Shown in pieces: positions 2-42,042 of a stretch of 48,024 nucleotides of DNA. Position numbers and translations under genes: made by a program. The notes beneath the pieces are model-generated. The model ran no database searches. It saw only the letters and a program-made list of their open reading frames with translations, and was not told the origin of the DNA. The DNA is from Schleiferiaceae bacterium (GTDB taxonomy: Bacteria > Bacteroidota > Bacteroidia > Flavobacteriales > Schleiferiaceae): assembly GCA_030833905.1 (NCBI GenBank), contig JAURGG010000005.1:1-48024 (forward strand), in the 5' to 3' direction. Every line of letters starts with the position of its first letter. Position 1 is the stretch's first letter.

Positions 2-262
2 ATGAAGAAGTTCCTTCGTTTTTCAGCCCTCGCCCTTGGTTCCACGGCACTTTTGATTGCGTGTGAGCCCGAAAACACCTGCCTTGAGTGCGAAGCATCT
101 CAGGTAACCACGGTTCAGGGCGAGCAGCCGGTCACGGTGCCCATTGGTCCGCTCGAACTTTGCGGAACCGAGGTGGATTCCGTCCTTACGGGCCCATTCA
201 CCCAAACCATTGATTTGGGTGGGGTGACGGCGACGCAGGTGACGACCTGGACCTGCCAGTAG
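2..262 (+). CDS. Small cysteine-containing lipoprotein, function unknown
   Basis: An 86-residue protein with an N-terminal basic stretch (MKKFLRF), a hydrophobic core and a lipobox ending LLIA-C, so Cys21 is the likely lipidated residue and the mature protein would sit on a membrane facing the periplasm or outside. The mature part is only about 65 residues and has four further cysteines (C27 and C30 as CxxC, C54 and C85), which could form disulphides or bind a metal. The start lies at the window edge, so its promoter is not visible. A stem-loop followed by a T-run lies just downstream. No family was recognised. Confidence 0.7.
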   Translation: MKKFLRFSALALGSTALLIACEPENTCLECEASQVTTVQGEQPVTVPIGPLELCGTEVDSVLTGPFTQTIDLGGVTATQVTTWTCQ

Positions 263-314: not shown

Positions 315-320
315 AATTTA

Positions 321-410
321 AAAGGGGACTTTAGTCCTTTGCCACACTATTAGTGTGATGTTCGCCTCCGTGGAGCATGGCTCAGGACCGGAGGAGTCCA
401 ATGTTATGGA
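321..410. other. Cluster of inverted repeats, possible structured RNA
   Basis: No convincing ORF lies here. Consecutive stems can be drawn: AAAGG(GG)ACT with AGTCCTTT (321-340, two bulged G), CACACTA with TAGTGTG (343-357), CCTCCG (365-370) with CGGAGG (389-394) enclosing GAGC/GCTC (373-383), and TCCA/TGGA (397-410). Strand is unknown and no known RNA family was recognised. Confidence 0.35.
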
Positions 411-468
411 CGTACTTTAAAGCCGGAATCTCCAGCAAACTTGAGCCGCCGTATGGGTAGACAAATAC

Positions 469-927
469 TTAGTCTTCGACGGGAAAATCGAATTTTGATA
501 TTTGGCGCTCCATTAAGGCAATAAATTCATCTACCTCTTTATTACTTGGCCTGTCCCGAAACAGTTCAATTTGACCATGAATTCGGTTGGGGATGAGCAG
601 TAAATTTTCAAAGCTTAAATACGTCAAGAGCAGCATCGCACTGAATAATAAAAAAGGTCCAAGCACCATGAACCAGGTTGCTTCACCTTCAGTGGGATCT
701 ATCAGTTCGAAGAAATTAGAGGCGAAGACCACACCGGAAATTACGGTTAACAAAATGATCAAAAAGCCTGGTTTGTCTTTGGTGTACGTAATGTGCTTTG
801 TGTCAAATTCTGAAAGGGGGAAATACTCGGTGATTTTATCCGTTAAATCACTACGAGTAATTTTTAAATGGTAGTTTACAATCTCAAGTTCGCGGACAAA
901 CAAGAAACGACGTTGCACTAGTTTCAT
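469..927 (-). CDS. Two-TM membrane protein, shorter paralogue of the upstream gene
   Basis: A 152-residue protein. Its N-terminal half (MKLVQRR...ELEI, then FPLSEFD...ITYTKD) precedes two hydrophobic helices at about 54-72 and 84-104, followed by a cytosolic-type tail with IELFRDRPSNKEVDEFI. The protein aligns along its length with the product of the gene directly upstream, sharing the MKL-Q-R start, the ELEI motif, the two TM segments and the FFR..P..REV..F motif, but it lacks that protein's C-terminal SHOCT-like segment. Its ATG overlaps the upstream TGA (ATGA), which suggests translational coupling. Base composition is clearly AT-richer than the genes after 1.77 kb. Function unknown. Confidence 0.65.
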   Translation of the reverse strand: MKLVQRRFLFVRELEIVNYHLKITRSDLTDKITEYFPLSEFDTKHITYTKDKPGFLIILLTVISGVVFASNFFELIDPTEGEATWFMVLGPFLLFSAMLLLTYLSFENLLLIPNRIHGQIELFRDRPSNKEVDEFIALMERQISKFDFPVED

Positions 928-1556
928 TCAGACTGACGTTCGATCGAATCTTTATTAAATCCAATGTTCGTGGCCTTTATTTTTCCCGTTGCGAGTTGAT
1001 TTTTTAACTCCGTATACTCTTCTTCGGTAATCACTTCTATTTGGAGCAACCAGTTGAGCTTAGAGATTTGGTGTGCTACGGGCATGTCGGGGTCAATAAC
1101 GGCGTGCTGCTTGCGTATAGATTCTTTAACGGCGTTTTTCAAGTTGGATACAAACGCGTTGACCTCACGGTGAGTTGGAAGTGCCCGAAAGAATTCTACA
1201 TCTCCCGATTGCGTTGAGGGAAACTGAATGACATCCTTTGATTTTACATAAAGAAAAAACGAGGATACACTGAGTCCGATGATCAAGGGAACAATCATGG
1301 AAATTGATCCTGAATTTTCTTGGGGATCGGAAATAGAACGATATAAACTGATTACAAGAAATAATGAAAAAAAGCCTGTTATAAACATGGATTTACGGTC
1401 GATGGTCTTCAAATAAACCATCCGCGAAACATCGATTTCATCCAAGGGTATATTGACCTCTTTCGAGCCAGAATAGCTTTTTGTGCTGTACCGTAACGTG
1501 TTCTTGAGAATTTCAAGCTCATAACGCTGTAAGAGCCTTTCTTGAATCAGTTTCAT
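924..1556 (-). CDS. Two-TM membrane protein with C-terminal SHOCT-like motif
   Basis: A 210-residue protein when started at the ATG at 1556; this start aligns with the first residues of the downstream paralogue (MKLIQERLL...ELEI versus MKLVQRRFL...ELEI). A longer in-frame start at 1610 adds 18 residues with no counterpart. It has two hydrophobic segments (about 57-74 and 86-104), then the FFRALPTHREVNAFV motif shared with the paralogue. Near the C-terminus, ISKLNWLLQIEVITEEEYTE (about 164-183) resembles the SHOCT motif, a short oligomerisation-type helix pair found at the ends of many membrane proteins. AT-rich composition and nearby tandem repeats suggest acquired DNA. Role unknown. Confidence 0.65.
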   Translation of the reverse strand: MKLIQERLLQRYELEILKNTLRYSTKSYSGSKEVNIPLDEIDVSRMVYLKTIDRKSMFITGFFSLFLVISLYRSISDPQENSGSISMIVPLIIGLSVSSFFLYVKSKDVIQFPSTQSGDVEFFRALPTHREVNAFVSNLKNAVKESIRKQHAVIDPDMPVAHQISKLNWLLQIEVITEEEYTELKNQLATGKIKATNIGFNKDSIERQSE

Positions 1557-1665
1557 CAATGTTGATTGCAGAAGATTAATCGTTCGGCGCCAGATCCAGG
1601 CATAAAGCAATGTGCCATTTGTTGGCGCTTTGATCTTCCTGATGCAGCAAGGCGAATATAATGAC

Positions 1666-1734
1666 TTTACACTTTGAGTGAATTTTATTTTACACTTTGA
1701 GTGAATTTCATTTTACACTTTGTGGAATAAATGA
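1666..1734. repeat. 23-bp tandem direct repeat, about three copies
   Basis: Copies begin at 1666, 1689 and 1712, each starting TTTACACTTTG. The first two continue AGTGAATTT(T/C)AT and the third diverges after TTTACACTTTG. The period is exactly 23 bp. They sit between the AT-rich membrane-protein pair and the GC-rich conserved backbone. They could be a remnant of a mobile-element end, since some IS families carry multiple short repeats at their termini, or protein-binding iterations. No transposase gene is present. Confidence 0.75.
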
Positions 1735-1772
1735 CACGCACGTGCGAGGCGTCCGGTTTGCGGCCAAAAAGA

Positions 1773-2654
1773 TTACTGATCCGCGCTCAACCGCGCCACC
1801 GTACCCAACGGCAGCACCTTGCCAAACGAGTCGGCCACGGCGAGCTCGAGCAGTTCGGGTTCGCGCTTGAAGTGCTGGCTGATGAGCGTGTGGGCGACCA
1901 CAGCGCTCAGGCCCATGCTGTACAGATTGAGGGCGAGGAATCCGCCCGGAGCGAGCAGGGCCGCGCAGTCGCGCAGTAGGTCGTCGATTTGTTCTTCGAG
2001 CACCCATTTTTCGCCGGCGGGTCCGCGGCCGTAGGCCGGAGGGTCCAGCAAAATACCCTGGTAGGTCTTGCCGCGCTTGACTTCGCGGCGCACAAAGGCG
2101 GCGGCGTCTTCGACCACCCAGCGAATGCCGTCGAGGCCGCTGGAGTCCATGTTGCGACGGCCCCAGTCGACCACCTTGCGGACCGAGTCCACGTGTGTGG
2201 TGTCGGCGCCGGCAGCGCGGGCGGCCAGGCTGGCTCCGCCGGTGTAGGCAAAGAGGTTAAGAACCTTGGTGTCGGCTCCGGTGACGGCCACTTGGTCAAA
2301 AATCCATTCCCAGTTGGTCGCCTGCTCGGGAAAGATTCCGAGGTGCTTAAAGGCCGTGCGCTCCAGGTCAAAATGCAGCTGGGTTCCGCGCAGGTCGTAG
2401 GTCAGGGGCCACTGAGCAACGGTTCCGGGTTTGAGCGACCAGTCGCCCGACTCGGGGTTTTGCTTGGACCGGCTGAAGTGGGCGTCGGCCCGCTTTGACC
2501 ACTCGGCGGGGGCCATCGAGGGCGTCCACACGGCCTGGGGCTCGGGGCGCCACAGCGTTTGGTGGCCAAAGCGCTCGAGTTTGGCGAAGTTTCCGCTGTC
2601 GATCAGCTCGTAGTCTGTCCAGGGCGCGACGGCCACGTCAATGCGGAGGCTCAT
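1773..2654 (-). CDS. Class I SAM-dependent rRNA methyltransferase-like protein (RlmI/RlmK superfamily, no PUA domain)
   Basis: A 293-residue Rossmann-fold methyltransferase. The SAM-binding motif I is NLFAYTGG (133-140) and the catalytic-loop motif is LLDPPAYGRGP (202-212), as in the COG1092 family that methylates cytosine-5 or guanine-N7 in 23S rRNA. The usual N-terminal PUA domain is absent and is replaced by about 100 residues containing SGNFAKLERFG and LRGTQLHFDLERTAFKHLGIFPEQ. RNA, probably rRNA, is the expected substrate, but the exact base cannot be read from sequence. Its ATG overlaps the TGA of the upstream radical SAM gene (ATGA at 2651-2654), so the two are coupled. Confidence 0.85.
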   Translation of the reverse strand: MSLRIDVAVAPWTDYELIDSGNFAKLERFGHQTLWRPEPQAVWTPSMAPAEWSKRADAHFSRSKQNPESGDWSLKPGTVAQWPLTYDLRGTQLHFDLERTAFKHLGIFPEQATNWEWIFDQVAVTGADTKVLNLFAYTGGASLAARAAGADTTHVDSVRKVVDWGRRNMDSSGLDGIRWVVEDAAAFVRREVKRGKTYQGILLDPPAYGRGPAGEKWVLEEQIDDLLRDCAALLAPGGFLALNLYSMGLSAVVAHTLISQHFKREPELLELAVADSFGKVLPLGTVARLSADQ

Positions 2655-3997
2655 GCGCGTTTGGCGTTGTAGTAGGCCTGGGTTTCGGCCGCCGGGTTAA
2701 AGTATCCGTAGGCGATGTGCGGGTAGGTTTCGCGCACGCGGTGCATCAGTTCGAGGACGCCAAACGGATTGCCGTCGGGCTGCTTGCGCAGCTTTTTGAA
2801 GTACCAGTCGGGGTCGATGTTAAAGTTCCGCCACTGAATCATGCTCAGGTCGGTATCCTCGATGAGGCGTTGGAGTGCGTCCCACTCGGCCGGAGTGTCG
2901 GTGCAGCCGGGGAATACGAAGTAGTTGATGCTCGCCCATCCGCCGTGCTGGCGCACGACCTTCAGGCTCTGGGCAAGGGCCTCGAATTCGTAGTTCCGCG
3001 GCAGGTAGTAGCCGGTGTACCAGTCCTTTTGGGCGGAATTCATGCTCACGCGGATGCTGCGCAGTCCGGCCTCGCAGAGCTTGGCGACGTCGTCGGGGCG
3101 CGATCCGTTGGTGTTGATGTTAAAAATTCCGCGGTCGGTCACGGCGCGCACGCGGCGCATCGCCTCGGCCAGGGTGTCGGCCACCAGCAGGGGTTCGCCC
3201 TCGCAGCCTTGCCCAAACGACATGACGGGGTAGGGCGCCTGCTCGAGGTGGTGCAGGGCAATGTCGGCAATCTCCTGGGGGTCAGGGATGAACTTGAGGC
3301 GAAAGTGGGCGCTCGACACGTCCTCGTCTTCTTGCAGCGAAATGCATCCGAGGCAGGTCGCGTTGCAGGCGGGCGACGAGGGAATGGGCAGTTCCCAGCG
3401 CTCCAAAAAGAAGTTTTGGGCGGCGCGGCACTGGTAGCTTCCGGCGCATTGGGTCGACAGGTGTTCCACGAGGCGGTTTTCGGGGAAGCGCTTTTTCATG
3501 CGGTTCACCGCGCCCTCGATCATGGGGGCGTGGAACTGGCTCACGTCCTGGCGCAGGTCGGGGTCGACGCGCACCGCCGTGGTCCAAAATCGCCCGTCGA
3601 ACCAACCTAGGGCCGTGTAGGCATAGAGGGGTAGGATCGGAGCCGGTCCGTTTTTTTCGTAGGCCGCCAGGTAGGTTTGGGTGTGCGCGGGGCTCACGAA
3701 TGCGGCCACGGCGTCGCCGTCCATCAGCTCGGACTGCTGGGTTTCAGGGTTCCAACCCAATGGCTTGCGGCCGGGCAAGGCAAAAAATTCGGAACCCTCG
3801 GGCAGCGGAATAAAGTCTTCGGGGCGGAGCGGCACGACGTCGTTGCCCGTGCGGCCCATGCAGCGCAGGTAGGGATGCTCCTCGATCTGGCCCTCAGCGT
3901 CGGCCACTAGGGCAAAGGGCACCTCAGCGGGGTGCTCAATGGGTCGCGAGCGAAAAAGCGGGTGTTCTGGGGCGAAGTCGAGGCTGCGGGCGTGCAT
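2651..3997 (-). CDS. Radical SAM protein with long N-terminal region
   Basis: A 448-residue protein. The radical SAM cluster motif is CNATCLGC (C211, C215, C218), expected to hold a 4Fe-4S cluster that cleaves S-adenosylmethionine. A conserved-looking GQGCEGEPLL follows, as in the GGEP motif of the superfamily, then NINTNGSRPDD and RSIRVSMNS on the barrel strands. About 180 residues precede the core and contain two more cysteines just before it (C184, C190). The substrate is unknown. The overlapping downstream rRNA methyltransferase-like gene hints at RNA or ribosome modification. A TACCTTTG box ends four bases before the ATG. Confidence 0.85.
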   Translation of the reverse strand: MHARSLDFAPEHPLFRSRPIEHPAEVPFALVADAEGQIEEHPYLRCMGRTGNDVVPLRPEDFIPLPEGSEFFALPGRKPLGWNPETQQSELMDGDAVAAFVSPAHTQTYLAAYEKNGPAPILPLYAYTALGWFDGRFWTTAVRVDPDLRQDVSQFHAPMIEGAVNRMKKRFPENRLVEHLSTQCAGSYQCRAAQNFFLERWELPIPSSPACNATCLGCISLQEDEDVSSAHFRLKFIPDPQEIADIALHHLEQAPYPVMSFGQGCEGEPLLVADTLAEAMRRVRAVTDRGIFNINTNGSRPDDVAKLCEAGLRSIRVSMNSAQKDWYTGYYLPRNYEFEALAQSLKVVRQHGGWASINYFVFPGCTDTPAEWDALQRLIEDTDLSMIQWRNFNIDPDWYFKKLRKQPDGNPFGVLELMHRVRETYPHIAYGYFNPAAETQAYYNAKRA

Positions 3998-4001
3998 GGG
4001 G

Positions 4002-4009
4002 CAAAGGTA
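4002..4009 (-). promoter_or_regulatory. -7 promoter box of the radical SAM gene, leaderless arrangement
   Basis: On the minus strand TACCTTTG is followed by CCCC and then the ATG at 3997. It matches the Bacteroidetes -7 consensus TAnnTTTG perfectly. Transcription would begin at about the start codon. No clear -33 TTTG was seen. Confidence 0.65.
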
Positions 4010-4032
4010 GCGCGGAGCGTTCCGCGCCGAAA

Positions 4033-5205
4033 TCAGTACAGAAACGTATCAAACGGAAAGCGCACCGCGTGAATCGTCGACGCGTTGCGGTAGATCATAT
4101 CGCGCAGGGCGTCGAACTGGTCTTTGTGCAGGGCGCTGATGAACACGCACTGTCCGTTGGTGCGGCGGGCCCAGGCGGATTTGAGCTCGTCAAGGGTTCC
4201 GGCGGGGCGGCCCTCGTCGTCAGTCGGAGCCGTCCAGGCGTCAATCTTGTTGAATACGACGATCTGGGGAGTGTCCTGGCAGCCAAGCTCCTGAAGGATT
4301 GCGGCAACGGACTCCATGTGGTCCTCGTAGTTGGGGTGGGCGACGTCGACGACGTGCAGAAGGATGTCGGCCTCGCGCACCTCGTCGAGGGTCGATTTGA
4401 ACGACTCGACGAGCTGGGTCGGCAGCTTGCGGATGAAGCCCACCGTGTCGGTAAGCAGAAACGGAAGGTTGCCCACCACCACCTTGCGTACGGTCGTGTC
4501 GAGGGTCGCAAAAAGTTTGTTTTCGGCCAGGACCTCGCTCTTGCTGAGCGCGTTCATGAGGGTGGACTTGCCGACGTTGGTGTAGCCGATCAGGGCCATG
4601 CGCACGAGGGCTCCGCGGTTGCCCCGCTGGGTGGCCATCTGGCGGTCGATGACCGTCAGCTTCTCTTTGAGGTGCGCAATTTTTTGCTTGATGATGCGGC
4701 GGTCGGTCTCGATTTGGGTTTCGCCGGGGCCGCGCATGCCGATTCCGCCCTTTTGGCGCTCGAGGTGGGTCCACATGCGCGTCAGTCGGGGCAGCAGGTA
4801 CTCGTACTGGGCGAGCTCGACCTGGGTGCGGGCGTACGAGGTCTGGGCCCGTGCGGCAAAGATGTCGAGGATGAGGTTGGTGCGGTCCATCACCTTGCAC
4901 TCAAACAGGCGCTCGATGTTTTTGAGCTGCGACGGACTCAGTTCGTCGTCAAAAATGACGAGGTCAACCTCTTCGGCGTCAAGGTAGGCCTTGATTTCGT
5001 CCATTTTTCCGGAACCTAGAAAAAGTTTCGGATCCGGCTTGTCGAGTTTTTGAGAGAATACGGCGACGGTTTCGGCTCCGGCGGTCTCGGCCAAAAAGCG
5101 GAGCTCGTCGAGGTATTCGTTGGCCTTGGTTTCGTCTTGGAGGCGAGTTACGGCCCCAACAAGCACACAGCGCTCAGGGCCTTGGCGGGGTCGCCGATCA
5201 ATCAT
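4033..5205 (-). CDS. hflX: GTPase HflX, ribosome-associated
   Basis: A 390-residue GTPase of the HflX family, which binds the 50S subunit and rescues or splits stalled ribosomes under stress. The N-terminal HflX domain contains FLGSGKMDEI and the strongly conserved GGIGMRGPGETQIETDRR (about 153-170) before the coiled linker. The G domain carries the P-loop GYTNVGKST (207-215) and the DTVGF switch II motif. Length is normal for the family. The start ATG lies four bases after a perfect TAACTTTG promoter box whose first three bases are the stop codon of the upstream gene. Confidence 0.96.
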   Translation of the reverse strand: MIDRRPRQGPERCVLVGAVTRLQDETKANEYLDELRFLAETAGAETVAVFSQKLDKPDPKLFLGSGKMDEIKAYLDAEEVDLVIFDDELSPSQLKNIERLFECKVMDRTNLILDIFAARAQTSYARTQVELAQYEYLLPRLTRMWTHLERQKGGIGMRGPGETQIETDRRIIKQKIAHLKEKLTVIDRQMATQRGNRGALVRMALIGYTNVGKSTLMNALSKSEVLAENKLFATLDTTVRKVVVGNLPFLLTDTVGFIRKLPTQLVESFKSTLDEVREADILLHVVDVAHPNYEDHMESVAAILQELGCQDTPQIVVFNKIDAWTAPTDDEGRPAGTLDELKSAWARRTNGQCVFISALHKDQFDALRDMIYRNASTIHAVRFPFDTFLY

Positions 5206-10298: not shown

Positions 10299-12633
10299 TG
10301 TCGTGCAAAAATGAGTTGTTTGGACGGAACTCTAAATCGTTCTTCTCTCCGCGAACCATGTGTTCACCCAGCGATTGCTCTTTGGAGTAGTTTGCAGACG
10401 CATCGAGGTTCCATCCCTGGCGCTCAAATGCGGGTCGGTCCATGTCTCCTTGCTGAATGCGCTGCTGGGCTTGGCCAAAACGGTGGCTGTAGGCCTGCAG
10501 GTAGGCGCGGCGTTCTTGGGCCATGCGGCGCATGGTGTCCTCGAGGCTGTCGCGGTCTGGGTCGATTTGAACGGGCTCGCGTTCGGCGACCATCGGGCGC
10601 ACTTCTACGCGAATTTCGCTCGGAACCTGCGGTGCAGCCGCGTGTGCCGCTACCTCAAACGAAGACTGTTCGCGCACCGGAGCCTCAAATTCAACCTCAA
10701 ACTTGGATTGTTCAAAACTCATGGGTGCTTCAATAGGAGCATCAAACGTTGCTTCAACTGCTTCCGCGAGGGGTGCGTCAAGCGATACCTCAACAGACTC
10801 CACGATGGGTGCATCGTAGGATGGTTCAATAGCTTCCGCGATGGGCGCATCGAATGATGACTCAACCGGCGCTTCAATGGGTACCGACGCTTCAAACGTT
10901 TCAAATGCTTCCGGCTGCGGAACAATAGGTGCAGGAACGTCACCGCGCAGCTGCGCCTCAAATGCCAATAGCTCGTCGAGACCGACGGTCTTGCGAATTG
11001 GCTCCTCGGCTACTGGTTCCTCGGCTACTGGTTCCTCGGCTACTGGCTCGTTGGCCACTGGCTCAAATGCCATGGGCTCCTCGGCGGTGATGTCGTCGTC
11101 CCAATCCAAGGTCCAGGTCATGGTGGGGGCGGGCTCTTCGTCGTAGGTGAGGGTTTCGCTGACGGGAGTCTCAGGGGCCCATTCGGGACTGTCGCCGAGT
11201 TCGAAGCTCATTTCTTCGAGTACGACTTCGTCGGCTGCGTGCTCAATGACCATTGACTCTTCAGCCACGGCCTCGATGGCAATGGGTTGCTCGATAGTCA
11301 TGGGTCCCTCGATGGCAATGGGCTGCTCGAGGGCAATGGGCTGCTCGATGGCCATAGGCTCCTCAGGCGCGAGCTCAAATGCCGCTGGGGCTGAGGGCTC
11401 TTGGGCTGCGGGTTCCCAAGCGATGGGCTCGTCGGCAGCATGGGGGGCTTCGACGAGGGGCATGTCGGTTACAGGCTCGGGGGCTGTGTGGGCTTCGCTA
11501 AGCGGAACCTCTACGGGGCTTTGCTGTGGCTCGACCGGAACGCTGCTGCGCACGGGCTCGTCAAAGAGGTTGAACTGTGAGCCGGGATTTGAATCGGGGC
11601 GGAGCTCGTAGACCACTTTTTCGGGTTCCGCGGGCTTCACCATACCAATCGGGTTGGTGGAGTTGAATCCGGTAGCGATCACGGTGACTTGAAGGGCGTC
11701 ACTGAGGTGCGCGTCTTCGCCAATACCCATGATGATGTCGACTTGACGGCCGGCTTGCTCTTGGATGTAGTCGTTGATTTCGCCGATTTCGTCGAGTGTG
11801 ACTTCGTGCTCGCCGGTTCCAGAAACGATGAGAAGCAGCACGTAGCGGGCGCCTTCGATGTGGTTGTCGTTGAGCAGCGGGCTGTCGAGGGCAGAACGCA
11901 CAGAAGTCAAGGCGCGCGTTGAGCCGGCGGCTTTGGCGCTGCCCATGATGGCGGTTCCGCTGTTGTGAAGCACAGTTTTGGCGTCGCGCAAATCGATGTT
12001 GACGCTGTAGTGGTGCGTGATGACTTCGGCGATTCCGCGGGCGGCAGTCGAGAGGACCTCGTCGGCCTTCATGAAGCCCTGCTTAAATCCGAGGTTGCCG
12101 TAGACTTCGCGGAGTTTGTTGTTGTTGATGACAATCAGCGAATCGACGTGCTCGCGAAGGCGCTCGACGCCCTGTTCGGCCTGGCGAAGGCGCATGTTTC
12201 CCTCGAACGAGAACGGAGCAGTGACGATGCCCACGGTCAGGATTCCGAGTTCGCGCGCGGCCTTGGCGATGACGGGAGCGGCTCCGGTTCCGGTTCCGCC
12301 ACCCATACCCGCAGTGATGAACACCATTTTGGTTTGGGTTCCGAGGGCGGCTTGAATTTCGGCGTAGCTCTCGAGGGCGGCTTGCTCGCCGACTTCGGGG
12401 TTGGCTCCGGCTCCGAGGCCTTCAGTAAGGGTCGCGCCCAACTGGATTTTGGTCTCTACAGGGCTGTGGGCCAAGGCTTGGCCGTCCGTGTTGCAGATGA
12501 TGAAATCTACCCCGCGAATGCCCTGGTTCTTCATGTAGTTGACGGCGTTTGAGCCGCCACCGCCTACACCTACAACCTTAATCGCTGAAGAGCGGTGCTT
12601 GGGTAAATCGAAATCTAAAGGATTGATGTCCAT
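10288..12633 (-). CDS. ftsZ: Cell division protein FtsZ with very long repeat-rich linker
   Basis: A 781-residue tubulin-like GTPase that forms the Z-ring. Residues 1 to about 330 are the normal globular FtsZ, with VGGGGSNAV (23-30 region), the tubulin signature GGGTGTGAAP (111-120) and the C-terminal subdomain. The rest, about 450 residues, is an acidic low-complexity linker made largely of repeats: P-I-A-I-E-Q type hexads, VAEEP pentads and about 12-residue S-x-DAP-[IL]-x-E units. It ends with the conserved tail NSFLHDNVD, the docking peptide for FtsA-type partners. Most FtsZ proteins have 350-500 residues; flavobacterial ones are longer, but this is long even so. Four bases separate it from ftsA. 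Confidence 0.97.
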   Translation of the reverse strand: MDINPLDFDLPKHRSSAIKVVGVGGGGSNAVNYMKNQGIRGVDFIICNTDGQALAHSPVETKIQLGATLTEGLGAGANPEVGEQAALESYAEIQAALGTQTKMVFITAGMGGGTGTGAAPVIAKAARELGILTVGIVTAPFSFEGNMRLRQAEQGVERLREHVDSLIVINNNKLREVYGNLGFKQGFMKADEVLSTAARGIAEVITHHYSVNIDLRDAKTVLHNSGTAIMGSAKAAGSTRALTSVRSALDSPLLNDNHIEGARYVLLLIVSGTGEHEVTLDEIGEINDYIQEQAGRQVDIIMGIGEDAHLSDALQVTVIATGFNSTNPIGMVKPAEPEKVVYELRPDSNPGSQFNLFDEPVRSSVPVEPQQSPVEVPLSEAHTAPEPVTDMPLVEAPHAADEPIAWEPAAQEPSAPAAFELAPEEPMAIEQPIALEQPIAIEGPMTIEQPIAIEAVAEESMVIEHAADEVVLEEMSFELGDSPEWAPETPVSETLTYDEEPAPTMTWTLDWDDDITAEEPMAFEPVANEPVAEEPVAEEPVAEEPIRKTVGLDELLAFEAQLRGDVPAPIVPQPEAFETFEASVPIEAPVESSFDAPIAEAIEPSYDAPIVESVEVSLDAPLAEAVEATFDAPIEAPMSFEQSKFEVEFEAPVREQSSFEVAAHAAAPQVPSEIRVEVRPMVAEREPVQIDPDRDSLEDTMRRMAQERRAYLQAYSHRFGQAQQRIQQGDMDRPAFERQGWNLDASANYSKEQSLGEHMVRGEKNDLEFRPNNSFLHDNVD
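10726..10870. repeat. 36-bp repeats in the ftsZ linker
   Basis: About four imperfect 12-codon units encode SFDAPIAEAIEP, SYDAPIVESVEV, SLDAPLAEAVEA and TFDAPIEAPM. Protein similarity exceeds DNA similarity, pointing to an older expansion. Confidence 0.6.
11003..11062. repeat. 15-bp tandem repeat in the ftsZ linker
   Basis: TCCTCGGCTACTGG(T/C) occurs at 11003, 11018 and 11033, with a degenerate fourth unit at 11048. It encodes VAEEP pentads. The first three copies are almost identical, so this is a recent slippage expansion. Confidence 0.85.
11272..11361. repeat. 18-bp tandem repeat in the ftsZ linker
   Basis: Five 18-bp units beginning CTCGATGGCAATGGG or a close variant start at 11272, 11290, 11308, 11326 and 11344. 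They encode the P-[IM]-[AT]-[IL]-E-[QG] hexads of the FtsZ linker. Confidence 0.85.
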
Positions 12634-34328: not shown

Positions 34329-35281
34329 TCCCAAAGCTCCTGAGCGAGTAGGGGAGCGTGCAGCGTGCCGCGAGACCCGAGCCCGTTGAGCATTCCCAGT
34401 GTGGGGAGCTCGGGGTGCCATCCCCAGCGCGGCCGTCGGTCCTGCGTGTTGGGTCGGATTCCGGTCCATTGGGCCCTCACCTCAATACCACCGTCAACCC
34501 ACTCTCGTGCGGAATTCAGCAGTTCCTCTGCCTGGCTGGCGTTGGCCTCGGGGGGATCCTGGTCGCCGTGCTCGATGCCCCAACCAAAAGAGGCCCCGAG
34601 CTGGTAGCCACCACCGGCCTCCGGAAGCAAAAAATGGCTTCGGTGCAGCATCACGCCCAGATCTATGGTCAGCGCTACATTAAGTCCTTGTCCCCACGTA
34701 CGGGCAAAGCCCAGCGGACCCCAAAAGTGCTCTGTCCAGCGCGCCTGGTAGCCCTCAGCGAGTACGATTCGGTCGAAACGATCTATAGCGTTAACGAGCC
34801 ACGCCCCATCTGGCATCGGTTCGAGCGATTCTACGGACTCGTTTCGAACGTCTACTTGAGTCCTCATGTGCTCGAGAAAACCGACTACATTCAGTCGAAA
34901 GCTCCCTTGGACTTCGCCGAGGCCAACCCCGTGAACCCCTCCAGGAACGGGGTGAACCGCCCCCAAGTAGGCACCCATCGTGGGATGGTCGCTAAGTGCC
35001 GACCAGTCATTGAGTTCCTGCACCGTGCGTAGGACCTCATAAATGGATCCCGACGAACGCAGTTCGCTAGGGTAGGTTCGCAGCGCGACATCTAGGGCTT
35101 CGGCGGCGCGCCACACCACTCGGCGCCGCTTGAGTACAATAGGATTGACGAGTCCCGTGGCAACGCGTGACGAACACCGGCGGCCCGCCACGTCGAAGAC
35201 CACTAGCTCCACACCTTTGGGGGCTGTGGCGGCAAGAGACGCTCCTGCGATCCCAAAGCCTACGAGGGCAATGCGTTCCAT
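34298..35281 (-). CDS. FAD-dependent oxidoreductase (DAO family)
   Basis: A 327-residue flavoprotein of the D-amino acid oxidase superfamily. The dinucleotide-binding motif is ALVGFGIAGASLAATA (5-20). A second segment IDRFDRIVLAEGYQA and the C-terminal WTGIRPNTQDRRPRWGWHPELPTLGMLNGLGSRG match the FAD-binding closing strand of the family. Related proteins include ThiO and the MnmC C-terminal domain, but the substrate cannot be assigned. It is shorter than most DAO proteins (about 370). It lies downstream of the gld terminator. Confidence 0.85.
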   Translation of the reverse strand: MERIALVGFGIAGASLAATAPKGVELVVFDVAGRRCSSRVATGLVNPIVLKRRRVVWRAAEALDVALRTYPSELRSSGSIYEVLRTVQELNDWSALSDHPTMGAYLGAVHPVPGGVHGVGLGEVQGSFRLNVVGFLEHMRTQVDVRNESVESLEPMPDGAWLVNAIDRFDRIVLAEGYQARWTEHFWGPLGFARTWGQGLNVALTIDLGVMLHRSHFLLPEAGGGYQLGASFGWGIEHGDQDPPEANASQAEELLNSAREWVDGGIEVRAQWTGIRPNTQDRRPRWGWHPELPTLGMLNGLGSRGTLHAPLLAQELWDQRLGAASAS

Positions 35282-35301
35282 TGAGGGTGCAAGTTAGGAG
35301 C

Positions 35302-35327
35302 AAAAAAAAAGCCACCCGAAGGTGGCT
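35302..35327 (-). terminator. Intrinsic terminator of the gld operon
   Basis: On the minus strand AGCCACC-TTCG-GGTGGCT forms a 7-bp stem with a four-base loop, followed directly by nine T. It starts 18 bases after the gldN stop and is the strongest intrinsic terminator in the window. Confidence 0.92.
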
Positions 35328-35345
35328 CTGTGCTGTGGCGTTCGC

Positions 35346-36170
35346 TTAGAACTGCCAGTAGTCGTGCTCGCGGTTGCGAAGGTCTTCGCGAATGCGCTTG
35401 GACTCCAGCAACTGCTCCATCGGATTGTTGATTTTGTAGTCCTTAATCTCGCGGTCGTACACGTTGTCTTCTTTGGTCACTACCGCATTGAAGTAGCGCA
35501 TTTGAAAGATTTGGTCAAACGTCAAACGTCGCGTGTTGTTGTTCGGATTGTAGGCAATGTTCGTCGCAAACGCCTGGCGGGCGTCGGGGAACCATACCCA
35601 GAACAAGTTAACAATGTCGCCCTCTTGCGGATCCTTGATCACCGGCGAGATTCCGATGATGCGGCTCTTGAGTTCACCTCGCTGCTTGTCAAAGTACCAG
35701 TCGCTCTTGATGTCCCAAGCCACAATGTTGTTTGACTTGATCTCAATCGAGTCGATCGCCAAAATGGTTCCGTCGTCGTTGTCGCGAATGGTGTCGATGC
35801 GAAACAGGCGTCCACCCACTTCATTCATCGTCAACGGACGCAAGAACATGTCGTCGTCGTACACCTCGGTGATGCTGCCTTCGCTCAGGATGGCATCCTT
35901 CATTACGTCAAACAGTGACTTGCGGTCGGGCAAGGCCTGAATGGGGTAGTACAAGGGGTGGTTGAGCTTTTCAAGTGTGAAAATTCGCTCCCAGTGGCGC
36001 TTTGACCAGAGCATGTCGTCCTGGCGCAAGTGCGGGTAGGGAACCACACGGGTTTGCGAGTAGTGAATGTCGGACTTGGGAATCAAGCCGTCATCCTGCG
36101 GAGACAGTACCTGCGCTTCGAGGGTTGCACCCGCGAAGAGGACCGCCAATAGGAATGCGATTTTTTTCAT
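35346..36170 (-). CDS. gldN: Type IX secretion system protein GldN (PorN)
   Basis: A 274-residue exported protein with a signal peptide (MKKIAFLLAVLFAGATLEAQ). Family stretches are PYPHLRQDDMLWSKRHWERIFTLEKLNHPLYYP, YDDDMFLRPLTMNE and NLFWVWFPDARQAFATNIAYNP. GldN/PorN forms a periplasmic ring complex with the lipoprotein GldK at the outer membrane, and the GldL-GldM motor docks to it. It lies two bases after gldM and is followed by a terminator. Confidence 0.96.
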   Translation of the reverse strand: MKKIAFLLAVLFAGATLEAQVLSPQDDGLIPKSDIHYSQTRVVPYPHLRQDDMLWSKRHWERIFTLEKLNHPLYYPIQALPDRKSLFDVMKDAILSEGSITEVYDDDMFLRPLTMNEVGGRLFRIDTIRDNDDGTILAIDSIEIKSNNIVAWDIKSDWYFDKQRGELKSRIIGISPVIKDPQEGDIVNLFWVWFPDARQAFATNIAYNPNNNTRRLTFDQIFQMRYFNAVVTKEDNVYDREIKDYKINNPMEQLLESKRIREDLRNREHDYWQF

Positions 36171-36172
36171 GC

Positions 36173-37687
36173 TTACTGAACGTCGAGGACGATGTTAGAA
36201 ATGTTGTCAATGCGCGCACCTGCTGGGGTGTTTGCCTTGATTTTGCGAATGGTCACTGAAGAACCAGGCTTCAAGCGCTGGATTTGGTCACGCATATCGT
36301 TAGGAATCTTGTTACCGCGAACTTCAACGGCAGGCTTTCCTTCAAACTTGATGTCAAACCCTGTAACGGTCAACGGCAGGTCAAACGGGAAGTCTTGGTA
36401 CTCGGCTTCGATTACACCTTTTGAAAGCAAACTTGAAGAGATCAAGCCATCTTTCTTCTTGTAAATTGTGCCCACTGCCTGCGGAAGACCCTTGATGCGG
36501 TACAGCTTGGTACCCGCTTTACGAGTTTTGCCGTCGGCTTCTTTCACGTTGACGGTAATGGTTACTTCCTTGCCTTCGACTTTCGTCACGTTGGCGACGT
36601 AGTTACCAGCCTTGCCTGAAATTCCGGGACCTGACACCATAAGGTTCTCAGGAGCCACACCCGGTACCGATACTTCAATCGGGTTGTCTACGTTGCGGTA
36701 GAGCACATTCATCTTGGTGGCAGCGATAACCACGCTTGGTGGTGCTACAGTGTACGTCAATTCGAAGGGGTAGTCGGTGTCACCACCAGGAACGCGCATG
36801 CTGCCCTTCAGCGTTTTTGAACCGTTGCCCGAACCTTGAATACGGATCTTACCCACGCCATCTTCAATGGACTGCGGAGTAATTCCGACAAATTCAGGAT
36901 TCCGCCCCTTATCGTAGGCAGCTAGGAACACATCAGCCTCGAGGTAGTCGCCCTGCGTTACGTAGGTGCTGCGTGGCATCACGACAGCGCGAACGTTGTC
37001 GAACTTCAAGGTGTTGGCATCGATTTGACCATAAAGGTGCTCAATCGTCTTGGCCTCCATACGGCGTACGCGCGACTGCAAGTCGGTCAAGAATGGAACG
37101 ACACCCGCGAGCGGTAACTCCGCGAACGTAGCGCGCTCCCACGACATCTTTTTACCCTCTACAACTTCATCGTCAAAGGTGAACGTCTCGTCGACAATGC
37201 GTTTCATAGTTGCATCACCGTCAGACTGACCCTCTAGGAACGTGCGAAATGCCGCAAGTTTTTCTTTGATCTCCTTGGCTTTGCCCTGACCACCTATGCT
37301 CTTGTCATTCAACAGGTAGTTCTCTGGAATGTCCCGGTTGTCAGCGCCTTTGTAGCGCCCCTCTTCGTCAAGACCACCTGTAAGTGCGATCATTTCATCC
37401 TTGGTTGTCGCCAAAAGGGCAAAAATTTCATCAGATTGGGACTTGACTTGCTTTGCGCGCTCGTTGATTGGCACAGCACGAGGGTTTTCAGAAACCTGGG
37501 CTTGAATTGCTTGGTACAGCGTAGCTGTTCCGCGCTCTACTGTCGAAACAGTAGCATTCATACCAAGGTCAAGCTTGGCGAGCACCCGCAGGATGTCCTT
37601 TGAGACGTTCAATGCCAGCATGGCGGTCAACACGAGGTACATCATGTTGATCATTTTCTGACGCGGGGAAATATTGCCTGATGCCAT
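36173..37687 (-). CDS. gldM: Type IX secretion/gliding motor protein GldM (PorM)
   Basis: A 504-residue protein with one N-terminal TM helix (MINMMYLVLTAMLALNVSKDIL, about 11-32) and a long periplasmic shaft of beta-domains. With GldL it forms the proton-driven rotary motor that powers type IX secretion and gliding; the shaft spans the periplasm to GldK/GldN. The N-terminus (MASGNISPRQKMINMMYLV) is nearly invariant in the family. Length is typical. Confidence 0.97.
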   Translation of the reverse strand: MASGNISPRQKMINMMYLVLTAMLALNVSKDILRVLAKLDLGMNATVSTVERGTATLYQAIQAQVSENPRAVPINERAKQVKSQSDEIFALLATTKDEMIALTGGLDEEGRYKGADNRDIPENYLLNDKSIGGQGKAKEIKEKLAAFRTFLEGQSDGDATMKRIVDETFTFDDEVVEGKKMSWERATFAELPLAGVVPFLTDLQSRVRRMEAKTIEHLYGQIDANTLKFDNVRAVVMPRSTYVTQGDYLEADVFLAAYDKGRNPEFVGITPQSIEDGVGKIRIQGSGNGSKTLKGSMRVPGGDTDYPFELTYTVAPPSVVIAATKMNVLYRNVDNPIEVSVPGVAPENLMVSGPGISGKAGNYVANVTKVEGKEVTITVNVKEADGKTRKAGTKLYRIKGLPQAVGTIYKKKDGLISSSLLSKGVIEAEYQDFPFDLPLTVTGFDIKFEGKPAVEVRGNKIPNDMRDQIQRLKPGSSVTIRKIKANTPAGARIDNISNIVLDVQ

Positions 37688-37739
37688 TATTTAGTTCGTA
37701 TCTAGATTACAAGGAGTTGTCTGCGAATTGAAATTCCGA

Positions 37740-38402
37740 TTAGGCGCGAACGCTCATCGCGGTCAGCATGTTGCCGTATACGGAATTCAATTGAGCCAAG
37801 TTTTGACTGAGCTTGGTTACCTCTGCTGAAAGCGCCTCTGCACTTTGAGCTGAAGCGCCAAGCTTTTCAAGAACAGCGCTTTGGACTTCCATTTGGCTCG
37901 CTGAGCTTTCAAGTTGAACAGCGTACAAGGCGTTCAATGCCTCCATGTTTTTAGCTGCAGCACCGAGCTGATCGCTGTAGGCTGCAGTAGCACCAGCGGC
38001 ATCTGTAGCGGTATTTAACGAGGCTGCAGTTTCGCTCAATTTGCGCATTCCACTTGATAGGCTGTCGAGTAACTCGGGACCAATCTTCGCTTCTTCGAGC
38101 ATACGATCAAGTTCTTGAGTGACTGTGCCTCCACCAGAACGACGAATCTTCTTTTCTTTAGCGGGCTCGTTCTCTAGTTCAGGGTATGCGAGTGTCCAGT
38201 CGTATTCTTTAGGCTGGGCCTCAAACGCAGAGATCGCAAAGATGACAGCCTCTGTAGTCAAACCAACAATGAGCATCAAATCTGCACCCTTGAGGTGGAT
38301 GATCTTGAACAGTGCACCCATAATTACTACTGCCGCACCGATACCGTACAGCTTGGCCATGAAGTTCTTAAAGCGCTTACCGTTTACATCAATTAAAGCC
38401 AT
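37740..38402 (-). CDS. gldL: Type IX secretion/gliding motor protein GldL (PorL)
   Basis: A 220-residue inner-membrane protein with two TM helices (about 18-36 and 42-60) and a cytosolic tail. Charged residues in or near the helices (Lys33, Glu51, Glu61) resemble those proposed to carry protons in GldL. GldL forms the stator-like ring around the GldM TM helices. The C-terminal part is a helical, Ala/Ser-rich domain. It lies between gldK and gldM with gaps of about 50 bases. Confidence 0.96.
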   Translation of the reverse strand: MALIDVNGKRFKNFMAKLYGIGAAVVIMGALFKIIHLKGADLMLIVGLTTEAVIFAISAFEAQPKEYDWTLAYPELENEPAKEKKIRRSGGGTVTQELDRMLEEAKIGPELLDSLSSGMRKLSETAASLNTATDAAGATAAYSDQLGAAAKNMEALNALYAVQLESSASQMEVQSAVLEKLGASAQSAEALSAEVTKLSQNLAQLNSVYGNMLTAMSVRA

Positions 38403-38448
38403 GGTGAAGAAATATTGAGGTTAAGATTGAGGGGGTTGTTGGTTGTTC

Positions 38449-39882
38449 TTAAAAATCTTTGCGGTCGCGGCCAAGGAAGCTTTGTACCGTGCGGAATCCG
38501 ATGTAGGACTTAGCTGTATCCTGGTACTCGTAGTCGCGCATGCCATTTTGCATGAAAATGGCGACGTCCTTCCACGATCCACCGCGAATCACTTTTCGCT
38601 TCATCGTGACGGGGTCTGATTCTGCAGCGTTGTACTTGAAGTCAGGGTTGAGGTCGGCTACAAAGAAGTACGAAGCTTCGTCCCACGCGGTACTGGTCCA
38701 TTCCGCTACGTTACCGGCCATGTCGTAAAGTCCGTATCCGTTGGGCTCGTAGCTGTGCACACGTACAGGGTGGAATCCGCCATCCGCAACGAGGTTACCA
38801 CGACCAGGCTTGAAGTTGGCCAAGAAGCAACCTTTACTGTTCGTAGTGTAGGGGCCACCCCATGGGTAGGTCGTCAATTCAAATCCGCCTCGAGCTGCGT
38901 ATTCCCACTCTGACTCTGTCGGTAGGCGGAACTCGTTCTCGATGAAGTCGTTATTCTGCTTCAAGTACGTGTTGCGGTAGTGCGTGCGCCAGTTGGCGAA
39001 GGCAGTAGCCTGCTTCCAGCTCACGCCCACCACAGGGTATTCGTCGTAGGCGGGGTGCCAGAAGTAGTTGTCGTGAAGGTGTTCGTTGAACGAGTAGGTG
39101 AAGTCCGAGATCCACGCCAAGGTATCGGGGTACACGTTTACAATCTCTGACATAAAGAAGCTCGAGCGATCCGATACCTTCTTGCCGTTTTTGATGTAGT
39201 CTCGGTACGAGAACGTGCGTCCGTCTCCGTCGGCATCACGGAAGTCCTTCTGCCAACGGTTTTCTTTTGAGGCGGCTTTTTGCTTGTCTACCCAAAAGTG
39301 CAGGTAGTTGAGTTGGCGTGAATCAATACTGCGTCCGCCCAAGTAGCGCTCTTCAGGCGACAGGTACATGGATTCAATGATCTCAGTGTACTCCTCTGAA
39401 GGGTAACGGCTCGGATCCCACACCAAACGGCGAGACCAATCAAGGTAGGTCTGCATGCTATCTGGATAGTTCAATCCTACGTACTCCTCGAAGTAGGTGG
39501 GATTGTTCATGTCGGCATAGTTGATGTACTCGTAGTCTTCTACCATGCCTTCGGCGAGGCGGTAGCGCAGAATGGAGTCACGAACCCAGTGCACGAATTG
39601 GCGGTACTCGTTATTGGTAATTTCGGTTTCGTCCATGTAAAAGCTCGACACGGACACCGACTTGGTCGAAGCGGTGAGTGTGGCAGGAACATCGACATCG
39701 GAATTACCCATTGAGAAGTGGCCTTGTGGAATGTAGACCATTCCGTAGGGGTCCGAAGGATAGAAGTCGGGGCGGTCTTGTACGCCTACTAATTCCCCGT
39801 GGTCGCCTCCTGAGCAGGACGCGAGAACCACTGCTGCCAAAGCGGCAAGCGAGAAGGGATTAAACATTTTTACGTGCATCAT
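38449..39882 (-). CDS. gldK: Type IX secretion lipoprotein GldK (PorK)
   Basis: A 477-residue outer-membrane lipoprotein with a formylglycine-generating-enzyme-like (FGE-sulfatase) fold. The lipobox is VVLAS-C (about Cys23). The fold motifs are GMVYIPQGHFSMGN, EITNNEYRQFVHW, PVVGVSWKQATAFANWR, RLPTESEWEYAARGG and DMAGNVAEWTST, ending RGGSWKD. No enzymatic role is known; GldK forms rings with GldN. The start at 39882 is followed by a second ATG three bases on, so the exact first residue is uncertain. It lies 32 bases after porP. Confidence 0.96.
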   Translation of the reverse strand: MMHVKMFNPFSLAALAAVVLASCSGGDHGELVGVQDRPDFYPSDPYGMVYIPQGHFSMGNSDVDVPATLTASTKSVSVSSFYMDETEITNNEYRQFVHWVRDSILRYRLAEGMVEDYEYINYADMNNPTYFEEYVGLNYPDSMQTYLDWSRRLVWDPSRYPSEEYTEIIESMYLSPEERYLGGRSIDSRQLNYLHFWVDKQKAASKENRWQKDFRDADGDGRTFSYRDYIKNGKKVSDRSSFFMSEIVNVYPDTLAWISDFTYSFNEHLHDNYFWHPAYDEYPVVGVSWKQATAFANWRTHYRNTYLKQNNDFIENEFRLPTESEWEYAARGGFELTTYPWGGPYTTNSKGCFLANFKPGRGNLVADGGFHPVRVHSYEPNGYGLYDMAGNVAEWTSTAWDEASYFFVADLNPDFKYNAAESDPVTMKRKVIRGGSWKDVAIFMQNGMRDYEYQDTAKSYIGFRTVQSFLGRDRKDF

Positions 39883-39914
39883 GGCAATGAATTAACGTCG
39901 TTGAGGGCGCGATA

Positions 39915-40844
39915 TTACAAAAATCTTGGGTTACGATAGCTTCCATTCACCCGAGGAGGGATCTCAATCGTAAAACAATATGTGAGAAAAAGTTCGTGAG
40001 AGCCTGAAGAATAGGCACTTAGGCTCGAAGTGGTCAAGTCGTACGAATACGAAGCGCGAAGCGATGGCATGATCTGGTAACCCAGCATGAGGCTAATTGC
40101 ATCCTGATTCCTCCAGCCAAGGCCCGCATAAAGCTTCTCCATGATCAATGCGTTTGCATTGAGGTCCATGGAAATGTTTGAATTCAAGTCGGACTTGAGC
40201 AGTATGCTTGGGGTGATTTGAATGGGGGTTGAGGTAGGCAGGTCAAACGTAGCTCCGCCCGTGAGGAAGTAGTGCAGTTTGCTTTGAAAGCGCGCTCCTG
40301 TTCCGAAGCTTGCCGAACTCTGAAGCAATCGGCTTGAAGAAAGGCCTGCAAACCAGCGGTCGTTGGTGTAGTAGGCTCCGAAATTGAGTTCAGGGGTGAA
40401 CGAAGTCGCGCCCGAGTTCATCACCGCAGGATCAGAAGGATTGTCGGGGAAAATCCATGTCGCTTGGCGTACGTTTTTATTTTTGAAGTCGACGGCGAGT
40501 CCGAGACCAAGGGTTCCGCTACCCAATTCAAGTTGGTAGGCGTAGCCCACGGCGGCAGAAATGTCTTCAAAAAAACCGATGCGGTCGTTGACGACGTTGA
40601 CCATGAGACCTCCGTGCAAAAGATCCACCGGAATCGATGCATTAAGGTTCTGAGTGGTAGGGGCACCGTCAAATCCTACCCACTGTAGGCGTTGCCCCAA
40701 GTTGATGCAAATACCATCTCCCGTGCCTGCAACGCCTGGATTGAAGCCAAGTCGGTTGTGGTAGTACTGGGTGAACTGAACGTCCTGCTGCGCCCATAGC
40801 GCGCTGGATATCAGCACCAAAGCACTTGCAATAAGGGATTTCAT
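39915..40844 (-). CDS. porP: PorP/SprF family type IX secretion outer-membrane protein
   Basis: A 309-residue protein started at MKSLIASALVLISSALWAQ, a clean signal peptide; another ATG lies three codons upstream (40853). The remainder of the open frame to 41315 runs through the arginase-like gene and is rejected. The mature protein begins QDVQFTQYYHNRLGFNPGVAG, the PorP/SprF hallmark, and continues as alternating beta strands of an outer-membrane barrel. PorP links GldK/PorK rings or carries cargo such as SprB to the surface. Its place just before gldK matches the porP-K-L-M-N order of Porphyromonas. Confidence 0.93.
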   Translation of the reverse strand: MKSLIASALVLISSALWAQQDVQFTQYYHNRLGFNPGVAGTGDGICINLGQRLQWVGFDGAPTTQNLNASIPVDLLHGGLMVNVVNDRIGFFEDISAAVGYAYQLELGSGTLGLGLAVDFKNKNVRQATWIFPDNPSDPAVMNSGATSFTPELNFGAYYTNDRWFAGLSSSRLLQSSASFGTGARFQSKLHYFLTGGATFDLPTSTPIQITPSILLKSDLNSNISMDLNANALIMEKLYAGLGWRNQDAISLMLGYQIMPSLRASYSYDLTTSSLSAYSSGSHELFLTYCFTIEIPPRVNGSYRNPRFL

Positions 40845-40911
40845 ACGGTACATTCGGTGGGTCGGGGTCTTGCGAATCAGCGCTAAAAGTAGCAAATATT
40901 TAGTTTGTTCG

Positions 40912-42042
40912 TTACAAACCGCGTCGAACAATGCGCCACCATACGTTGGGGATGCTTCCGCTTTGTGCTTGGTCGTAGTCTTCGTATGAGCACGGAACCA
41001 ATTGGTGCCGAGCGTTTTCAGATGGATTGTTGGGTACTTCAATCCACCATCGCATGCTGAGCGGAGACTTGTAAAAAACCATTTCCCCTTGATCGTCAGG
41101 AAGCAGCACAGTGAATTTAAGGTTCTCGCTTTTGGGGCGGAGCGGGAAGTCGGCCACGCGGCCCGCCACACCATCCATGAAGTACCATAGACCTTGGGCC
41201 CAGAGGTGTGCGTTTTGGCCGTCAAGGTCTCGAGACCCCACAAAGTCGGTGAGGCAAAGGCTGCTGAGCTTGTCGCTGAATCCGGCGAAGCGCAGCAGCG
41301 CACAGAAGGACTCACCGCTCAGGCCGTTGGGGTTTGCTTCGTGCTGTGCGGGGGCGTCCGCAGCCCGCACCGCCGCATTGTGGACAATGGCCATGTCGGC
41401 GTCGCGCAACCATGGTTCTGCACGTTGAATGGGCTGCATTTCGCCCACGCGGTGTACTTCGAGGTGCATTTTCTCGGCGAGGTCCAGTGCAGATTGCGGA
41501 ACAAAGTAGCTCTGGTGGGCCAGGTGGCTCACGTGAAAGAGGTGGAACGGCTTGTGCGTAAGTAAGTGGGCGAGCAGGTTGCTACGGTCGGGCAGGCTGT
41601 GGTCGTCTCCGAGCGAAATGCGCGAGTTGATCAAGCACGCATTAATCGTTTGCTCCATCTTTCCATAGGCGCGGTAGACGCCCAAAGGCCAGTCAGACCC
41701 GGCTCCGAGGAACACGGGTATGCATCCGTACTTCATCACTTCGACGGCCAGCTCTTCGACGGCCACCAAGGTATCAACTCGGTCCCGGCCTGGCCTGAGG
41801 TTTCCGAGGTCGACCACGCGAAGGTCCCAGGGTCCCCAGTACAAAGGGTAGAGTGCGCGTCGTACGCTGTCTGCCACATCGTGAGCGGCTGCGCGTTGTT
41901 CGGGAACGCCGATCAGCGCGATTCGGGCACCTCTGAGGTCCGGAAGCTCATCACGGTTGAGTTCAATGCTGGCGCCCAGTGTCTCTGCGGGCCACTGCTG
42001 GCTAAAGTCCAGCGGAACGGGTTCAAGCCATTCAGTCCCCAT
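40912..42042 (-). CDS. Arginase/formimidoylglutamase-fold protein with degraded metal sites
   Basis: A 376-residue protein that aligns with flavobacterial proteins annotated as formimidoylglutamase (IALIGVPEQRAAA, FNPNGFNG-like ANPNGLSGESFCALLRFAGFSDK, FYKSPLSMRWWIEVP). True ureohydrolases bind two Mn ions with GGDH, DAHxD and SxDxD motifs. Here the corresponding stretches are GAGSD (113-117), INSRIS (138-143) and MAIVHNAAVR (217-226), so the His and Asp ligands are missing. It is probably not an active hydrolase. It lies three bases after topA and 67 bases before porP. Confidence 0.85.
   Translation of the reverse strand: MGTEWLEPVPLDFSQQWPAETLGASIELNRDELPDLRGARIALIGVPEQRAAAHDVADSVRRALYPLYWGPWDLRVVDLGNLRPGRDRVDTLVAVEELAVEVMKYGCIPVFLGAGSDWPLGVYRAYGKMEQTINACLINSRISLGDDHSLPDRSNLLAHLLTHKPFHLFHVSHLAHQSYFVPQSALDLAEKMHLEVHRVGEMQPIQRAEPWLRDADMAIVHNAAVRAADAPAQHEANPNGLSGESFCALLRFAGFSDKLSSLCLTDFVGSRDLDGQNAHLWAQGLWYFMDGVAGRVADFPLRPKSENLKFTVLLPDDQGEMVFYKSPLSMRWWIEVPNNPSENARHQLVPCSYEDYDQAQSGSIPNVWWRIVRRGL

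Follow-up and report, generated by a model that had tools for sequence, protein, structure and literature searches.

Two small, overlapping genes for membrane proteins lie in AT-rich DNA near the left end of a contig from a Schleiferiaceae bacterium, and they raise the question of whether such a pair is an acquired working unit or a passenger without joint function. The window analysed here is the whole of that contig (48,024 nt), part of a 1.64-Mb genome in 193 contigs that is 94% complete. We approached the question through the site of the pair in related genomes, the protein family to which both copies belong and their predicted structures.

The gene pair and its site

The features are listed below, with positions in the window unless another contig is named.

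2..262, plus strand: left flank, a small gene called lipoprotein-like for its signal-like start, conserved in part of the genus
316..1770, no strand: inserted AT-rich segment, approximate ends, drawn from GC content and from homology to relatives' sites, which stops at ~310-320 and resumes at 1766-1791
469-927, minus strand: short gene, an ORF of 152 aa; predicted PH-like domain with an inserted TM hairpin, without a tail
924-927, minus strand: ATGA stop/start overlap of the long and short genes, read from the sequence
924-1556, minus strand: long gene, an ORF of 210 aa; predicted PH-like domain with an inserted TM hairpin, plus a SHOCT-like C-terminal helical hairpin
1666..1722, no strand: 2.5 tandem copies of a 23-bp direct repeat (97% matches), upstream of the long gene
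1773..2654, minus strand: right flank, a SAM-dependent methyltransferase gene (PF10672, E 6.5e-13)
L068 (G002:C18:8000-10000), 498-864: expanded site in congener G002, with direct and inverted hairpin copies
L073 (G008:C143:900-3175), 804-1858: mobile mystery proteins A and B in the site of congener G008, both over NCBIfam cut-offs

The initial annotation had placed the pair at 924-1734, a range that holds only the long gene and the repeat array; the short gene occupies 469-927. Its description of two overlapping, paralogous membrane genes held up. Both genes lie on the same strand and share 4 bp, an overlap that probably couples their translation; each protein contains two hydrophobic stretches, and a local alignment of the two scored 135 against a shuffle maximum of 58 (n = 300; z 20), so that at 24% identity they read as diverged paralogues. 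The long gene was started at ATG 1556, with relatives beginning at the matching position, and TTG 1610 is an alternative possible start. The earlier proposal of a duplication stands as paralogy, which supports an old event: we rejected a recent one given the 24% identity and the higher score of each copy against a single-copy relative in genome G138 than against its sister. A tree put both window proteins in one five-row clade with proteins from G138, G854 (copy a) and G897 (95/95), inside which the order is unsettled.

The pair had also been called AT-richer than everything downstream, and it is: positions 316-1767 have a GC content of 41.1% versus 58.0% for the contig, a gap of about 18 points, and the lowest other contig stretch of equal length reaches 48.7% (steps of 50 bp). 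A second lower-GC stretch lies at about 35250-41000 of the window (about 47-55%). Part of this AT-richness is a family trait: at 13 of 16 loci (14 genomes) the GC content of the family gene fell below that of the genes around it, with a mean difference over all 16 of 5 points. This weakens AT-richness alone as proof of transfer, and the case for transfer rests on empty sites.

Those sites bear it out. Of 21 genomes from the same genus, whose completeness is 63-98% (90% or more in 10), eight yielded the methyltransferase at 88-97% identity, three of them as fragments; in the other 13 its ortholog was not recognisable and the site was not judged. The left-flank lipoprotein was found at 76-92% identity over 86 residues in seven congeners (G001, G002, G005, G008, G017, G019 and G020), and as a partial match in G007 (52% over 44 residues). 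In the seven genomes whose contigs span the site, the lipoprotein and methyltransferase genes are neighbours, and the pair is absent from all seven, the site being empty or otherwise filled. Three of these genomes, G020, G005 and G019, have 97 bp between the two matches, G017 has 103 bp, and G007, with its partial lipoprotein match, has 39 bp. In G002, whose methyltransferase is the most similar among congeners (97%), the distance grows to ~365 bp through copies, some direct and some inverted, of a hairpin situated after the lipoprotein gene; in G008 it is ~1,371 bp, and in the window 1,516 bp. The G008 filler consists of mobile mystery proteins A and B (HTH and Fic), which exceed their NCBIfam cut-offs (134.5 versus 122.6 bits and 230.5 versus 124.4 bits, respectively). 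In G001, the contig continues past the lipoprotein gene into other DNA and ends within it (L075, G001:C92:6700-7779, about 680-1080); a plasmid search with that DNA returned no match.

The long protein had no match at E 0.01 in any of the 21 congeners. The presence/absence comparison that the initial annotation had proposed thus agrees with its view of an accessory pair and supports an acquired insertion of the two-gene segment. A chimeric contig was ruled out, as both insert flanks match one locus in congeners (the G007 lipoprotein partially). By reading, the left breakpoints of the window and G008 inserts differ, and the junctions carry no direct repeat of at least 6 bases that would mark a target duplication, their longest common word being 6 bases and inverted; the intergenic site is therefore a variable one and not evidently a specific attachment site. 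One intergenic site of a small-genome lineage is thus filled by differing small accessory pairs.

The 23-bp array may be an operator array or an insertion scar. It had been described as bounding the pair and as the point at which the island stops, but it lies on one side only, no left-hand partner of at least 12 bases was found, and the ends at ~316 and ~1770 instead follow from the empty sites of relatives. Searched with up to 3 mismatches allowed, the 20-bp core of the array recurs nowhere outside it, either in the window or elsewhere in the genome; at 3 mismatches, one match each occurs in three of the 21 congeners (G013, G015 and G016). The dyad within the repeat unit is weak (5 of 8 symmetric pairs, which 3.4% of window 17-mers equal). 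Upstream of the long gene, a search for a promoter motif that we take to be of the Bacteroidetes type found two -7 elements with one mismatch each, and no TTG accompanies either at the spacing tried. That the genes were carried in by an IS21-like insertion sequence, with the array as one of its ends, we consider highly improbable. It does lie near the right junction, ~45 bp from resumed homology, and the relative in G897 comes directly after an rve transposase; but the array is single-sided and without a second copy, the genome contains no rve domain (the only transposase family sought) and thus no DDE transposase with matched ends was seen, the paired 23-bp repeat has no exact match in genome_contigs or viral_contigs, and the junctions lack a direct repeat. 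We set the IS21-like origin aside on these grounds. Elsewhere in the window, tandem repeats occupy 10999-11064 and 11272-11364, with 15- and 18-bp units, both multiples of three, in 4.4 and 5.2 copies.

An unnamed family, usually in single copy

The profile searches suggested earlier were run with both proteins. No Pfam or NCBIfam cut-off was passed by either, no homology to a housekeeping family turned up, and neither PADLOC nor PHROGs yielded an assignment. The statement that no recognised family fits thus holds for named families; an unnamed family nevertheless exists, to which both proteins belong by sequence comparison, and the models of the two look PH-like. Several weak matches were discounted as chance or as confined to the tail: in Pfam, transporters, DUFs and 8xMP (E 0.0002); in NCBIfam, NF047680 (E 0.0057, residues 122-188); and in PHROGs, 2700 and 888 (E 0.0017 and 0.0042, C-terminal third, function not assigned). 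The best match of the family profile among PDB sequences, the Hsp70 C-terminal region (E 0.0066), was taken as a chance helix match. Among the open-licence PMC papers retrieved on SHOCT, on bacterial or split PH domains with transmembrane parts and on mobile mystery proteins, we recognised none as describing this family.

Members are scattered through the same class. Of 395 genomes searched in the order, 27 gave matches (E 0.01), 19 of which stood on reading of the frames; of 395 searched in the class, 10 did (E 0.001), seven standing on reading; and of 349 in the G138 family, 16 did (E 0.001). The three sets overlap and come from single-protein and profile searches. From the order set, nine of 29 match rows were left out as unrelated, partial or tail-only (L003, L016, L022, L023, L024 and L026-L029, with L024 left out on its stops), and two of the 19 genomes (G164 and G171) hold apparently broken copies. 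G620, G073 and G423 were left uncounted in the class set as weak partial matches, and L092, which shows no visible family frame, was left out of the GC and tree work. The 16-row member set and the 24-row tree are selections from the matches, not all those of the G138 family.

The members read are usually single genes, and their products run to about 200 aa: a strand-rich N-terminal part is followed by a TM hairpin, a helix and a bi-helical tail with a conserved WL, and many end in I/V-G-F/Y. Reading 4-12 kb of context around 16 loci, we found one family gene in 15; the remaining locus, G581, has a second adjoining family gene, both with tails. The short/long arrangement was seen in the window only, and at none of these 16 loci. 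Nearest to the long protein in the order are relatives in G854 (33%), G897 (32%) and G138 (31%), which share full-length similarity, the TM hairpin, the tail and a terminal GF/GY with it but, unlike the pair, are single genes in other contexts, with no short partner adjoining. G854 has three family members on three contigs (L114, L117 and L118). The G897 relative, a close one, comes directly after two transposase frames (HTH_Tnp_1 and rve, E 4e-23; L115, G897:C3:362000-370000, 2166-4068). No close relatives of the pair were found in genome_contigs, viral_contigs, plasmids or phages.

The initial annotation had suggested a hetero-oligomeric membrane complex, perhaps for sensing or defence, and these contexts bear on two further readings. 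The proteins could form a phage-defence or abortive-infection module that detects infection at the membrane and inflicts damage on it; this we regard as improbable. The pair is small and membrane-bound and sits in a variable site that in G008 holds a Fic-containing pair, whose Fic protein matches the PADLOC candidate PDC-S04 (E 4e-19), but both window proteins matched zero PADLOC families at E <=1 (a search to which a new system would be invisible), a tblastn search of phages and plasmids with the long protein gave no match, and relatives adjoin housekeeping genes such as those for AIR carboxylase and 3-hydroxyacyl-CoA dehydrogenase. A pair akin to toxin and antitoxin, with one membrane protein doing harm and the other holding it in check by way of the common domain, seems very unlikely. 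Small overlapping genes in an acquired segment would suit it, as would the other occupant of the site, which pairs an HTH with a Fic protein in a layout that we take to be like that of toxin-antitoxin pairs; against it, both proteins are of PH-TM type without a toxin family match, and relatives occur as single genes.

Predicted fold, topology and tail

Confidence in the AlphaFold models is limited: the only two rows of their alignment were the long and the short protein, neither model is independent of the other, and the pTM values are 0.42 and 0.49. In the long model (pLDDT 61) six strands are listed, with a two-residue seventh strand and a helix, followed by two tail helices; the short model (pLDDT 72.6) has seven strands and then a C-terminal helix. 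In both, the TM hairpin falls between strands 5 and 6. VIA-align, which only re-scores Foldseek candidates and whose own notes state that middling Z values are common and that a Z <8 may reflect a mere common arrangement, gave PH-superfamily domains as the best match of the long model (Z 9.8, rmsd 2.6 over 91 residues) and of the short model (Z 9.0, rmsd 3.1 over 86 residues), and scored the bacterial PHb structure 3hsa at Z 8.7 and 8.1, respectively. Judging by titles that we recognised, nearly all the VIA-align rows listed were presumably PH, PTB, FERM or GRAM domains, including two bacterial PHb structures. Foldseek itself returned no match to the long model at E <=0.001; its best row was a myotubularin (E 0.055), near which unrelated XLF/XRCC4 and CCDC61 chains ranked. 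No Pfam PH family exceeded its cut-off among the 16 members (GRAM reached E 0.37 in one), and hhalign with six-row alignments of YcxB and of bPH_2, tried as parent families, gave no profile match. A seven-stranded sandwich with a C-terminal helix cap is present in prediction only, and on these models the proteins probably have a PH-like fold split by a TM hairpin.

Charges flanking the hairpin point mostly to one topology, with the PH part and the tail cytoplasmic and a short acidic loop outside: K/R precede TM1 in both proteins and the inter-helix loop contains D/E only, although an arginine at the loop end of TM1 in the long protein runs counter to this.

The SHOCT-like end ascribed to one protein stood as a predicted helical hairpin, whereas its SHOCT assignment stayed below threshold. 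Only the long protein has a bi-helical segment after the domain (model helices 160-172 and 178-189), and the short protein ends just after the PH helix. Against Pfam SHOCT (PF09851) the tail scored 13.9 bits, the gathering score being 27; among the 16 members, SHOCT never exceeded the Pfam cut-off, with sub-threshold matches in three, and SHOCT_2 matched one. The tail also aligned with two L016 proteins over 37 columns (P 0.00078, hhalign probability 25%). In those two proteins bPH_3 and SHOCT both exceed their Pfam cut-offs, so PH plus SHOCT is a known combination; from such proteins the pair would differ, on the models, by the hairpin inside its PH-like domain. The comparison with the L016 proteins lends weak support to a SHOCT-like tail.

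The tailless form of the short protein could also mark it as a decaying duplicate of an ordinary acquired long gene, a passenger with no joint function. We consider this possible but rather unlikely. The long branches of both copies (1.12 and 1.27), the single gene at 15 of the 16 loci and the absence from the short copy of the tail's WL motif, among the most conserved positions of the family, fit such decay; yet the short frame runs unbroken as far as a stop just past the PH helix, no tail remnant was seen in three frames downstream of it, the short model is the more confident of the two, and the ATGA overlap has been kept.

A candidate mixed assembly and its known counterparts

The reading that we tentatively prefer, while holding it to be somewhat short of probable, is that the pair encodes an acquired membrane-anchored PH assembly, a mixed unit of tailed and tailless subunits. 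The two-gene cassette would have been acquired recently into the variable intergenic site. Each copy would be anchored in the inner membrane by its TM hairpin, which would interrupt the cytoplasmic PH-like domain between strands 5 and 6 and turn its acidic loop to the periplasm; the long copy would continue past the PH helix into the SHOCT-like helical hairpin, and the short copy would stop at the helix end. The overlap of the genes and their probable coupling in translation point to a mixed membrane assembly of PH domains as the likely functional unit. Beyond the insertion, paralogy, overlap and family membership observed above and the predicted fold and topology, we infer co-assembly, a dosing of tails and a role: tailless subunits would set the number of SHOCT-like tails displayed, and the assembly would perhaps serve as a scaffold or sensor for envelope stress. 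The single gene at 15 of 16 loci suggests that the short partner is not generally needed and that the family can work without it. A bolder version, a mobile two-component membrane machine in which a hairpin-threaded, PH-like mixed ring uses the tailed/tailless ratio to set its output in envelope stress or phage defence, strikes us as clearly unlikely.

Tail dosing draws on analogy. In PMC2817789, the rings that bacterial PHb domains build are C5 when a C-terminal helical hairpin is lacking and C12 when one is present, and its authors suggested PHb-mediated oligomers for membrane relatives. The pair resembles this with/without-hairpin contrast, and by that analogy we prefer a mixed assembly in which the short protein would dilute the tails. 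SHOCT-like domains have been proposed to aid the assembly of membrane-associated complexes (PMC11237479), but an oligomerization test of a SHOCT domain was negative (PMC3581485).

With this analysis, proteins that had no annotation gain a family and a probable fold, and a natural pair with and without the tail is a possible test bed for the job of the SHOCT domain. Three known systems offer comparisons. Mobile mystery proteins A and B (TIGR02612/TIGR02613) likewise form a two-gene cassette, at the same chromosomal site in G008, but they are unrelated proteins in the opposite orientation with a different left breakpoint by reading. SHOCT proteins (PF09851; PMC3581485), including the L016 bPH_3-SHOCT proteins, similarly join a PH-type domain to a C-terminal bi-helical tail; the family differs in falling below the gathering score and in its WL motif and frequent terminal I/V-G-F/Y, and the L016 proteins, unlike the pair, have no visible TM hairpin. 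Bacterial PH-like domains (PF08000/DUF1696 and membrane-anchored bPH; PMC2817789) share with the pair the seven strands and C-terminal helix predicted here, membrane anchoring and versions with and without a C-terminal helical hairpin, whereas the TM hairpin of the pair is predicted to lie inside the domain, between strands 5 and 6, and its profile matches neither bPH_2 nor YcxB.
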